DNA of 21,099 nt from positions 1 through 21,099 of IMG/VR virus record IMGVR_UViG_3300035698_011133; one strand, given 5' to 3'. Position 1 is the first letter of the stretch; each line of letters begins with the position of its first letter. Of this stretch, positions 3,571 through 17,585 are shown piece after piece. Position numbers and translations under genes: made by a program. The stretch comes from a virus. Under the pieces are notes generated by a model, which did no database searches, had not been told where the DNA came from, and saw nothing but the letters and a program-made list of their open reading frames with translations.

Positions 3571-4562
3571 TTATGTCACTGTACTCTTTAGGTCATCAAT
3601 CAAGCAAAGAGCGTCTCTCCAGTTGAAGTTGAACGCTAGGCGTTCGCTCACAACATATTTCCGCTGGTCAGATTCTATAATCTCACCTTGCTTGAACTTG
3701 ATCATCCGCCGATCACCAATCTCGGGTGAAGACGTGTGCAACAGCACGATCTTACCTGCCGGTGCCAGTGGAACTTCATAGACAGGAATGCCGTACAGCA
3801 TGGAAACAATCCCAGCACCTTCACCTGCCGAACCAAGTCCGGTCAGGAACGACGCAAGCGCCTGTCCTGAGATTGAAGCATCTTTGAAGCTGCTATCCAT
3901 CCGTAGGTTAGCAGCTTGATCATTCGGAGCAAGCGCAACAATCTTATTACGGTTACGCGCATACTTCCCAAGGTTGTATAACGCGATATTGACTTGATCC
4001 AGATCAATAACGGCACTACCAGCATCTACTGATGTTGCCGCGTCTGATGACCCTGCCACTGTGAAGATACCATCAAACATGGTACGGGCATCCCGCACAT
4101 ACCAGTTATCGGCGGTGGCCGAATCAGGTGTCGGTGCTGTGGCCGTATGGGTCGTGTTCCCCAGAAAGTAGTGTCAGATTCTTCCGCTTCTGCGAGAGCT
4201 TCCTGCACTTCTTCCATAACCTGTGAAATCACATCTGGCTGTGAATCCTCTACAGCTTCTTCATCCACAAGCACGTATGCCATGAGTTTTTTTGCCACCC
4301 ATTGCACCGTAGTCGCCGACATTCCACTTAGCGTAGCAGTCACACCATCTGGAATATGGTACGCGCTCACATGGTTACCGCGCTTCGGTTTTGTCCATGT
4401 ACGAGACGCCATGCGGAAGGTCTTGAGCAGACGCCGCATGATATTCTGTTCACGGATGTTCGAGATCACTTCCCGCGCCAATGGGTCAGGGAGATAACCT
4501 GTAATCGTCCCACCCACGTCCACCGAGAGTGCTTCTTTTACGATTGTTCTTGTAGTTGCCAT
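3571..4562 (-). CDS. HK97-fold major capsid protein, frame-broken
   Basis: Two adjoining frames make one protein. The ATG at 4562 (AAGGAG, 8-base spacing) reads 135 residues to DTTFWG. One extra base at 4159-4162 (a GGGG run on the coding strand) would continue it as NTTHTATAPTPDSATADNWY and on to the stop at 3571, about 330 residues in all. Capsid-type features are an N-arm/E-loop-like stretch (FRMASRTWTKPKRGNHVSAY), the KLMAYVLVDEEAVEDSQ spine-helix region followed by an acidic helix, and a C-terminal part with GIPVYEVPLAP, IKFKQGEIIE and a final LAFNFNWRDALCLI. As written, frame 0 ends at 4026 after 43 unrelated residues, and the downstream frame has an internal ATG at 4098 without a good ribosome site. 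A sequencing or assembly indel in the homopolymer is the simplest reading. Position after protease and before a terminator fits. GC is higher than neighbours (31 of 60 in 3841-3900). Confidence 0.85.
4158..4163 (-). other. Frame-break site in the major capsid gene
   Basis: Coding-strand TGGGGA. Frame 0 reads TGG GGA ACA and leads into unrelated residues ending at 4026; a reading with one more G (TGG GGG AAC) joins the two capsid halves. The site is not an X XXY YYZ slippery heptamer. Confidence 0.75.
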
Positions 4563-7314: not shown

Positions 7315-9522
7315 CTAATATTCTTCTAGACCAACAAACGTATTTTGTGAGCCACCAATCTCAGCATTGTACACCGCCCCGAACACTGCATCACAACATG
7401 CTTTGTCGAATCCTCTAGCGTGATCTACCTTTTTACCCTTGATATATTTTAGATGTCGTGCTTCTCTTGCAAACATTCTGTCCCAAGGGTATTGCACCCT
7501 GTTCTCAATAAATGCTTGCTTTGATGCTGCTGGAATGGTATCATCTCTATCTAGCGATATTAAATCCGTCTCAATATCCCAGTCTTCGATGCGTTGTTTT
7601 AGATGGTGGCTTTGGTAACTATCCCAGGTTATCTTTACTATATTAAATCCGTGCTCAATAAGAAACTTAATAATTCTGTTTTCTAACGCTGTATAATATA
7701 TCTCACGCTTACGCATCATGTTTGGATCTCGTCCACCCCTTGGGTCCAGCCATCCAACTACATCTACAACTATAATAGGTTTTTCTTCAAAGAAATCTTC
7801 TCTATCCATAGCCTCTAATTGTAATTTTCTCTTATCTGCAATCTCTTTTACTTGATACCCATCCATCTCTATACGTACCCAGTCTACGACATGTGTCAGC
7901 GCAAACCCCAATACATCCTTATTTTTACTCAAATCAAAGTGCATAAAATATTCTGCATCTAGTTGTGGCCTTAATGTCTCCATATTCCATCTACCGTCTC
8001 CACGATATGGATTTGCTTTACAACCATCATAATCACGACAGCAATAATCCGTAGCTATCACATCCCTATCTTTCCAGACCTTACACTGGCGACATTCTTC
8101 ACAGGGGTTTTGATCTATAAATTCTGGATCTGCCCAGAATGACTCAATTACCCCAGACGGCTCCGCAGCAAAATCCCGCATGGCACGGCGATAGTTTCTT
8201 TCAAAAGCATACTTAAAATCTTCTTTTGACAATCTTGGATTTACTTCCCAGGTTGCAGCTTTTTCAGTATAGCCATCTTCTCTACCTTTTAACTCGTAGT
8301 ATTTACGCATTACAAAATCATCATCATATCGTGGCGTTGTAATGCCTATCATTTTGTAGTGATCGGGAAATCGTGTTTGGCAAGAACCATATGCAGCTTC
8401 CCAACATTCTTCTGCCCGAGATTCTGATTCTTCGTCTGCATCTTTAGATAAAAAGAAAGCTAACTCATCCCCCACCCACTGAATAGTATTGTACCCTAAC
8501 CAAGAAAAAGCCTGACTGTTCGCGCTCAAGGCTACAAGATTATTCTCAAACCTAACACTGGAAACACCGGGATCTTCGTGCATACCTCTAAACCAAGGAC
8601 AGTTTAATAACATCCCCTTAAACTCAGAAAAAAAGACCTTTTTGGCCTGTTCATCATTTCTAGCTGTATTCACAAAATAGATTGGTGACCCCGGAGAGAG
8701 ACCATAATACAACTGTGGGCGATACATACAGAGACACCTATATATTCCATAAAGGTGAATAATACTAGACACATAATCCTTACCACTATTATTCACATAA
8801 ACCCCGTTGGCACAGTAGTTGTGATTCGGATTATCACACAGTATATCGTAGACCCCCTTTATCCCAACATCAACCACCGTTACTAGTCTAATAAATTTTG
8901 TCGATGCCCTTACCTTGATACCATATTTCACATTCCATTCGTAAGAGGCCTCCAACCATTTTTCATTATTGTCCGGTGTCTTCAATAATCTTCTAGGCGC
9001 ATATATAAGATCGTCTTCAGTTAAATGTGAGATCTTTATCTCACCCCGGTTGTACGTTGTTATCCCGTGACCGCTTGTTGCCTCTATCTGCATTCCATTG
9101 TTAAATAGATATTTCTTTACTTCATTCACACCTCTGTAGACACACAATCCATTATTCCACACCATACAATTATCTACCGACCGAGATTGTACTCTTGTAA
9201 CCTTACCTGAAAGATCTTGCATACTTCTTAGACCTCTTTCGGTCCAGATTAAGGTGTTGCCTGAGAGACAGCCTTTTCCCAATAATAGTACTGCTTCCCT
9301 TATCTCATCTCTAGTAAGATTCTTAGCTATCTCCATTATCTTAGGTCTACAGCCACGTTTGTTTTTCTCGTCCCATTTCTGGCCTAGAAATTCTTTGTTT
9401 TCTATAAATGCTTGTATGTCTACCGGCTCTTCACGCCATATTCCTTGATTGTTTGATCCTGTCAATCCATCAGCTAATTCTAAGAACGGATCTATTCGTG
9501 ATCCTTTTTTAACTCTTGGCAT
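7315..9522 (-). CDS. terL: Terminase large subunit interrupted by a mini-intein
   Basis: 735 residues from ATG 9522 (MPRVKKGSRID), chosen for the GGGGA ribosome site; an ATG at 9537 is an alternative. Without the intein it is 574 residues, normal for TerL. ATPase: Walker A would be LLLGKG|SGKDYVSS, split after GKG (82-84) by an intein (85-245) and resuming at S246. Walker B is IQWVGDELAFF with D352/E353, and a GITTP coupling motif lies near 393-397. A Cys-rich linker (C474, C477, C480, C494, C495, C501) suggests bound zinc. The C-terminal RNase-H-like nuclease shows D530 (MHFDLS), D587 (IIVVDVVG) and D706/D711 (VDHARGFDKACCD). It cuts and pumps genome DNA into proheads with the portal. It overlaps the preceding small gene by 14 bases. 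Activity needs intein splicing because the P-loop is broken in the precursor. Confidence 0.94.
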   Translation of the reverse strand: MPRVKKGSRIDPFLELADGLTGSNNQGIWREEPVDIQAFIENKEFLGQKWDEKNKRGCRPKIMEIAKNLTRDEIREAVLLLGKGCLSGNTLIWTERGLRSMQDLSGKVTRVQSRSVDNCMVWNNGLCVYRGVNEVKKYLFNNGMQIEATSGHGITTYNRGEIKISHLTEDDLIYAPRRLLKTPDNNEKWLEASYEWNVKYGIKVRASTKFIRLVTVVDVGIKGVYDILCDNPNHNYCANGVYVNNSGKDYVSSIIHLYGIYRCLCMYRPQLYYGLSPGSPIYFVNTARNDEQAKKVFFSEFKGMLLNCPWFRGMHEDPGVSSVRFENNLVALSANSQAFSWLGYNTIQWVGDELAFFLSKDADEESESRAEECWEAAYGSCQTRFPDHYKMIGITTPRYDDDFVMRKYYELKGREDGYTEKAATWEVNPRLSKEDFKYAFERNYRRAMRDFAAEPSGVIESFWADPEFIDQNPCEECRQCKVWKDRDVIATDYCCRDYDGCKANPYRGDGRWNMETLRPQLDAEYFMHFDLSKNKDVLGFALTHVVDWVRIEMDGYQVKEIADKRKLQLEAMDREDFFEEKPIIVVDVVGWLDPRGGRDPNMMRKREIYYTALENRIIKFLIEHGFNIVKITWDSYQSHHLKQRIEDWDIETDLISLDRDDTIPAASKQAFIENRVQYPWDRMFAREARHLKYIKGKKVDHARGFDKACCDAVFGAVYNAEIGGSQNTFVGLEEY
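8788..9270 (-). other. Mini-intein in the terminase Walker A motif
   Basis: 161 residues between GKG and SGKD. Block A is CLSGNTLIWT, with Cys1 as nucleophile. Block B is IEATSGHGI, with the TxxH pattern. Block F is VYDILCDNPNHNYCANG and block G is GVYVNN followed by extein Ser+1. No LAGLIDADG or HNH domain fits in ~160 residues, so it is a mini-intein that splices but cannot home by itself. The penultimate residue is Asn rather than the usual His; some natural inteins lack this His. The join restores GKGSGKD exactly. Confidence 0.92.
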
Positions 9523-9778
9523 AACGGTTCCCCACATTTCTCACATATAAAAGAAAAAGTGTATAGTGAACAGATTTAGACTTTCGCATCTCTCTATCAA
9601 CATATGTGCGTATTCTCTGATTATGCAACCTTTGTATATGCTCAATCAAATGAGTGCGTATTGCAACATTTTCAATGCTCTCGGAATATTCTGAATAGTA
9701 CAGAGCACGCAAAAGCATAGGCATGGAAAGTTTGCACTTCCCCCGTCTAGTCCTGTGATGTCTGTATGCTTTATCCAT
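9509..9778 (-). CDS. Small basic protein of unknown function between terminase subunits
   Basis: 89 residues, rich in Arg, His and Tyr (RHHRTRRGK near the N-terminus, RIRTYVDREMRKSK later). No family recognised; a helical, basic make-up would suit DNA or RNA binding. ATG 9778 overlaps the stop of the preceding gene in ATGGATAA, and its end overlaps the terminase start, so it is translated as part of the packaging operon. A packaging accessory role is inferred from position only. Confidence 0.7.
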   Translation of the reverse strand: MDKAYRHHRTRRGKCKLSMPMLLRALYYSEYSESIENVAIRTHLIEHIQRLHNQRIRTYVDREMRKSKSVHYTLFLLYVRNVGNRYAKS

Positions 9779-16842: not shown

Positions 16843-17118
16843 TTAACCTCTTGGAAATGTGGGTTTTTCTGCGGGACCGTGTAGATCATAAGCCCTAAAT
16901 CTCGGTTGGCTCATTACTGGAACTGGATCTATAATGATCAATCTTTCCACGTCAAACCACCTACTATCTGAGATCTCACCATCGGGCTTGACAGTACCAG
17001 GATTAACAAGTGCTTGAATACATCCGTATAAATCGTAAGCAACGGTTGTAACAACTCCTTTAAATTCAGTTACTTTATCTTGTGTTTTCAGGCCCAATAA
17101 TTCTTTGTAGTCTTTCAT
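16843..17118 (-). CDS. Conserved phage protein, DLYGCIQ/WFD family
   Basis: 91 residues. GLKTQDKVTEFKGVVTTVAYDLYGCIQALV then SRWFDVERLIII is a pattern I recognise from small proteins in many phage genomes (K-V-T-F-G-V-T, YGC, WFD), probably with an SH3-like beta-barrel. Its biochemical role is not established as far as I know. ATG 17118 overlaps the stop of the DNA-glycosylase-like gene by ATGA. The last residues overlap nothing; the next start follows within 5 bases. Confidence 0.72.
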   Translation of the reverse strand: MKDYKELLGLKTQDKVTEFKGVVTTVAYDLYGCIQALVNPGTVKPDGEISDSRWFDVERLIIIDPVPVMSQPRFRAYDLHGPAEKPTFPRG

Positions 17119-17585
17119 TTTCTTAAATCCCTAAACATACGTGTTTCATTGTCTGGCCACAAGTACCCTTCTCTAGGGACTTCTGTCCAGCCGAAATTAC
17201 CATACCAACTATAATTCTTGTGAAGTAGTGCTGCCCTGTGGGCAGAATGAAATTCTGCGTGTCCCATCCACCAAGGATCTACTATATTTGCTATTGTAAA
17301 CCCCGGGATGTGACGTAGACTCATTCGCAATTCCTGAAACTTTGTAAGCATATTGTCTTTGTATCCACGAGCTTTCCATTCCTTACAGGAAACAATACCG
17401 TATATACATAGTATATATTCTGAACCTTTCCACATCTTAACTACTGGGTGATTTACCCATCCAGAATTTTGTCCTAATAAATTCTGTAATATACTCCAGG
17501 TTTCCACGCGTTGTTTACCAAGACGCTGACGATCAAGACATGTAACTGAAATCTTGATATTTGAATTAGGTAAAAAGGTTTGCAT
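17115..17585 (-). CDS. MSMEG_6728-like / pyrimidine dimer DNA glycosylase-related protein
   Basis: 156 residues, full length for this family. The N-terminus MQTFLPNSNIKISVTCLDRQ with RLGKQRVETWSIL, then GWVNHPVVKMWKGSE, YGIVSCKEWKARGYKDN, AEFHSAHRAALLHKN and a terminal WYGNFGW..P..GYLWPD are the conserved blocks of MSMEG_6728-type proteins, which are related to the T4 endonuclease V / Pyr_excise superfamily. It may act on damaged or modified DNA, perhaps repairing phage DNA. Family match is confident, activity less so. It overlaps the gene above by 20 bases and the one below by ATGA. Confidence 0.82.
   Translation of the reverse strand: MQTFLPNSNIKISVTCLDRQRLGKQRVETWSILQNLLGQNSGWVNHPVVKMWKGSEYILCIYGIVSCKEWKARGYKDNMLTKFQELRMSLRHIPGFTIANIVDPWWMGHAEFHSAHRAALLHKNYSWYGNFGWTEVPREGYLWPDNETRMFRDLRK

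Follow-up and report, generated by a model that had tools for sequence, protein, structure and literature searches.

Inteins that interrupt the P-loop of large terminases and phage inteins without the penultimate histidine have both been published. In mycobacteriophages, the Walker A loop of the large terminase is interrupted by the class 1 inteins TerL1-a and TerL1-b, and the penultimate His (position G:6) of mycobacteriophage inteins is often replaced by Gly, Lys or Ser (PMC5050341). Mycobacteriophage terminase inteins that were tested splice readily, and a change from Gly to His at G:6 of one phage intein impaired or slowed splicing, with accumulation of the precursor (PMC5050341). The Bethlehem RDF intein, a phage class 1 intein with an endonuclease, carries Gly at this position, splices well and is impaired by His (PMC5050341). 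HisG:6 is absent in about 5% of functional inteins, where its restoration may help or harm (PMC4031507), and a block F His is able to assume its role (PMC5050341, PMC4031507). Loss of the His has also been discussed as tuning the splicing rate in phages (PMC5050341).

The insert analyzed here lies in a window of 21,099 nucleotides (the whole stretch of DNA that was analyzed) from a 21-kb viral contig. It resembles TerL1-a and TerL1-b in class, loop and host protein, and mycobacteriophage inteins in the loss of the penultimate His, but its terminase belongs to a different, uncultured phage group. Whereas TerL1-a is inserted between the invariant Lys and Thr, the insertion in the window is located two residues N-terminal to the Lys (GKG|SGK) and is therefore not at the TerL1-a site as PMC5050341 defines it. 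Its penultimate Asn, and the Glu of two relatives (L127 and L108), are outside the residues named for mycobacteriophage inteins in the text of that paper. Unlike the Bethlehem RDF intein, it resides in a terminase and has no endonuclease. L127 and L108, both from IMG/VR contigs, share its insertion point, the block F motif HNYCAN and the lack of a penultimate His (43-44% identity), but L108 keeps an endonuclease-type insert (400 aa). The closest solved fold is the Ssp DnaB mini-intein (PDB 1mi8, 6frh), which is likewise class 1 and endonuclease-free, but is only 18% identical over the structural alignment and interrupts a different host protein.

The insert in the terminase Walker A loop

The terminase frame (Table 1) is open across all 740 codons and reads MPRVKK... 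from the second ATG. It matched phrog_17415 (terminase large subunit; E 6.5e-18), the C-exteins of relatives are 53-58% identical to its own, and it is followed by the portal gene and then by prohead protease and capsid genes. The intein sequence is CLSGNTLIW...ATSGH...VYDILCDNPNHNYCANGVYVNN, flanked by LLLGKG and SGKDYV. In-frame excision of the 161 residues yields LLLGKGSGKD in a 574-aa protein, the junction codons being AAT AAT AGT (Asn-Asn|Ser). The original prediction of a mini-intein at 8788-9270, splitting the P-loop between GKG and SGKD, was confirmed. Its account of the catalytic residues (Cys1, block B TxxH, terminal Asn, and Asn encoded by AAT instead of the penultimate His) and of the missing endonuclease domain was correct, and it had calculated the restored GKGSGKD and the products of 735 and 574 residues correctly. 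That splicing would be needed to rebuild Walker A is supported by the position of the insert. The GC content is 0.40 for both intein and extein, and composition gives no sign of a foreign insert.

Table 1. Features of the terminase gene and of its predicted intein (positions in the window)
Feature	Position	Strand	Remarks
Large terminase (TerL) precursor ORF	7315..9537	-	740 aa; 735 aa from second ATG at 9522
N-extein	9271..9537	-	C-terminus ...LLLGKG
Class 1 mini-intein, 161 residues	8788..9270	-	precursor residues 90-250
C-extein	7318..8787	-	starts SGKDYV...; remainder of ATPase domain and nuclease domain
Block A nucleophile Cys1	9268..9270	-	codon TGT
Block B A-T-S-G-H (TxxH)	9067..9081	-	T65/H68
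Disordered linker, pLDDT <50	8911..8985	-	position of endonuclease insert in same-site relatives
Block F Asp (F:4)	8845..8847	-	D142
Block F His (F:13)	8821..8823	-	H150, retained; candidate stand-in for penultimate His
Penultimate residue G:6 = Asn	8791..8793	-	codon AAT
Terminal Asn G:7	8788..8790	-	codon AAT; N161
+1 Ser nucleophile	8785..8787	-	codon AGT; doubles as Ser of Walker A loop GKG|SGKD

Two further observations were made on the window. The major capsid gene (3571-4562, minus strand) is split into overlapping frames at 4026-4562 and 3571-4098, with the break apparently at a G run near 4162. It is a single ORF in a related contig (L119), and the split reflects either an assembly error or a true frameshift. 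A pyrimidine dimer DNA glycosylase family protein (Pfam PF03013, E 3.3e-21) is encoded at 17115-17585 on the minus strand.

Class 1 inteins are marked by Cys or Ser at position 1, Thr-x-x-His in block B and the HINT fold and, towards the C-terminus, by Asp at F:4, commonly His at F:13, a terminal Asn and a nucleophilic +1 residue; the penultimate His is usual, not obligatory. Class 3 inteins are without a nucleophile at position 1 and have a block F Cys and a WCT triplet, and bacterial intein-like (BIL) domains are without a +1 nucleophile. The insert contains Cys1, ATSGH, D142, H150, N161 and Ser+1, its block F reads VYDI...HNY, and the penultimate residue is Asn rather than His. Class 3 was rejected in view of Cys1 and the Asp at F:4, and a BIL domain in view of Ser+1. 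The length of 161 aa and the disordered linker, located where relatives hold the endonuclease insert, identify a mini-intein.

Curated models placed the insert close to or below their thresholds. TIGR01445 just missed its cut-off (E 4.4e-5, 24.4 versus 24.5 bits), and Pfam Intein_splicing remained sub-threshold (E 8.5e-4, 19.6 versus 35.8). The same-site mini-intein L006 clears the NCBI cut-offs for the N- and C-terminal models (TIGR01445, 58.2 bits; TIGR01443, 19.6 bits). A Pfam PF05203 search of the window's own record gave no match, and the controls likewise matched nowhere. The AlphaFold model, built on a shallow alignment of eight rows of same-site inteins, is all-beta (pLDDT 80, pTM 0.74). 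Compared with the PDB, it matched the Ssp DnaB mini-intein best (TM-score 0.76 by query, 0.81 by target; E 6.7e-11); the listed matches consisted entirely of inteins, intein-like and hedgehog domains. A HINT fold is thus predicted. By sequence and model, 8788-9270 encodes a class 1 mini-intein within the TerL Walker A loop, with predicted splicing activity.

Empty sites and same-site inteins in related terminases

Scanning for the clade-specific Walker B region of the terminase returned 32 viral contigs. The loop is uninterrupted in 19 (GKGSGK in 17, GKGAGK and GKGGGK in one each), nine carry an intein at exactly GKG|SGK, and four are truncated. LGKGSGKD is also unbroken in about 76 more distant terminases. 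Since related terminases, 19 of them close and about 76 more distant, are uninterrupted at the same site, the segment is not a product of chance, and its reading as a normal terminase domain was rejected. The terminase nearest to that of the window (L115, 72% identical over aligned columns) has an uninterrupted loop. L115 and L122, also uninterrupted, carry Ala and Gly, respectively, in place of the +1 Ser (GKGAGKD, GKGGGKD), neither of which could serve as the +1 nucleophile; these two may be resistant to the P-loop intein, or the +1 residue may vary by chance.

No member of the window's terminase clade was detected in 84,980 bacterial and archaeal genomes scanned by two methods. Related terminases of named phages reach at most about 33% identity (255 records), and none of the nine that were read has a same-site intein. 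In Gordonia phage Gmala1 (L134; NC_028972.1, 2022-5141), the terminase is annotated as 'DarB-like antirestriction' and contains an unannotated intein at GVGK|S, with Gln as first residue and SHN at its end. The P-loop of the sister phage GordDuk1 is uninterrupted; an insert is located near Walker B instead.

With the window included and L123 and L124, which are identical, treated as one, the GKG|SGK site has nine distinct inteins. The intein tree separates them into two well-supported groups (100/100): group I, with the window, L127 and L108, and group II, with L006, L113, L118, L123 and L009. The truncated L002 was omitted from the tree but shares its motifs with group II. Mini-inteins occur in the window (161 aa), L127 (153 aa) and L006 (149 aa); L108 (400 aa), L113, L118 and L123/L124 are full-length (400-465 aa), and L002 and L009 are truncated or frame-broken. 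The full-length inteins contain an insert with LAGLIDADG-like motifs, as judged by eye, and match intein-plus-endonuclease models, e.g. PRK07773, along their length. In L123, Gln replaces the block B His.

The catalytic set C1, T65/H68, D142, H150, N161 and S+1 is shared among the window, L127 and L108, and a scan with this subgroup recovered only the latter two. In the terminase tree, group I inteins turn up at three positions that are separate and well supported, pointing to transfer between lineages or repeated loss. Both fit a homing element of which some lines have lost the endonuclease. Because its closest full-length relative keeps an endonuclease-like insert, the window intein looks like a decayed homing intein.

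Penultimate and block F histidines

A penultimate His is found in none of the nine distinct inteins at the P-loop site, full-length endonuclease-type ones included. G:6 is Asn in the window, Glu in L127 and L108, Gly in L006, L113, L118 and L002, and Ser in L123 and L009. At two nuclease-domain sites of the same terminases, by comparison, six of seven inteins have the penultimate His (Fisher p 0.0009, sequences being counted regardless of kinship). One minus-strand ORF, the 1529-aa terminase of L118 (IMGVR_UViG_3300035698_007730), holds three inteins, one in the P-loop (ending GN) and two in the nuclease domain (DQFQ|C...VSHN|S and RG|C...VHN|S); their penultimate residues are Gly, His and His. 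A nuclease-domain intein without penultimate His (VSN|S) was also seen in an unrelated phage terminase, that of Rhodobacteraceae phage LS06-2018-MD07 (L003).

Whether Asn is common in this lineage had been posed as a check: Asn itself is confined to the window among the nine same-site inteins, whereas a residue other than His is universal. AAT had been remarked to be one base from CAT, but a recent one-base loss of His was rejected; the same-site relatives are without His and the nearest have Glu. Since all same-site inteins have a non-His residue at G:6, loss of the His is, from these alignments, an old trait of the P-loop site family and not a lesion in the window phage.

The two histidines occur in four combinations. 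F:13 His is present and G:6 His absent in group I, third-site inteins keep G:6 His without F:13 His, both are present at the second site, and neither is found in group II and L125. Group II inteins (L123/L124, L113, L009, L002, L006) have Arg or Ala at F:13.

Probable splicing without the penultimate histidine

Our overall reading, which we hold to be very likely, is that of a Walker A class 1 mini-intein that rebuilds GKGSGKD without a penultimate His and descends from a homing intein. In the TerL precursor, an intact ATP-binding loop could not form. Cys1 would attack the GKG|C bond, the chain would be transferred to Ser+1, and cyclization of the terminal Asn would be followed by joining of the exteins into GKGSGKD. 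By analogy with described inteins, H150 is most likely used in place of the missing penultimate His to aid this cyclization. The ancestor may have been a homing intein in which the penultimate His was already gone and the endonuclease insert still present; the insert would then have been lost later. Counterpoints are the model scores just under the curated cut-offs and the penultimate Asn, unique among sampled members.

It had been suggested that the missing His may lower splicing efficiency or make it conditional and could time packaging; on a regulatory reading, ATP-driven packaging would be delayed to late infection. The insert position does make ATPase activity dependent on splicing, and tuning of splicing rate by His loss has been discussed for phages (PMC5050341), but we regard such a regulatory role as very improbable. 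A non-His residue, whichever it is, is common to all nine same-site inteins, as descent predicts; the block F His is retained; in many close relatives packaging proceeds with no intein at all; and group I is scattered over separate terminase branches, as a mobile element would be. In addition, ready splicing has been published for terminase inteins, and the Gly-to-His change that was tested slowed splicing (PMC5050341). Neither low efficiency nor timing of packaging is therefore supported.

Decay of the intein towards poor splicing or mere cleavage, leaving a hypomorphic terminase, would agree with the lost endonuclease insert (161 aa versus 400 in L108), the missing His, and the broken capsid frame, by which genome or assembly is not pristine. 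All other catalytic residues are intact, however, Ser+1 is kept, and the frame is open over 740 codons of a protein essential to a tailed phage, making this outcome very improbable. Cyclization of the penultimate Asn in place of the last one, by which the loop would gain a residue, is suggested by the tandem Asn codons directly before Ser, but is extremely improbable given that E, G or S precede the invariant last Asn in relatives and that the loop it would change is conserved in about 95 of them. The window intein is probably an ordinary, efficient class 1 mini-intein, most likely spliced constitutively and with no regulatory role.

For the family as a whole, we tentatively propose, at somewhat less than even confidence, that the P-loop-site inteins have long lacked a His at G:6, that those of the window, L127 and L108 depend on the block F His, and that a six-intein branch uses neither histidine. 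This branch (group II), with Arg/Ala at F:13 and Gly/Ser at G:6, seems to splice without either. Taken alone, the window intein adds one to the known terminase mini-inteins; of greater interest is the comparative set, especially group II. With inteins at three sites of a single terminase family and the two histidines in four combinations (both, F:13 alone, G:6 alone or neither), in some cases within a single polypeptide (L118), the relatives represent a natural experiment in which the interchangeability of F:13 and G:6, and the replacement of both, become directly testable. If the proposal is true, they would offer a naturally occurring group of inteins, probably homing to this day, in which Asn cyclization without either histidine could be studied.
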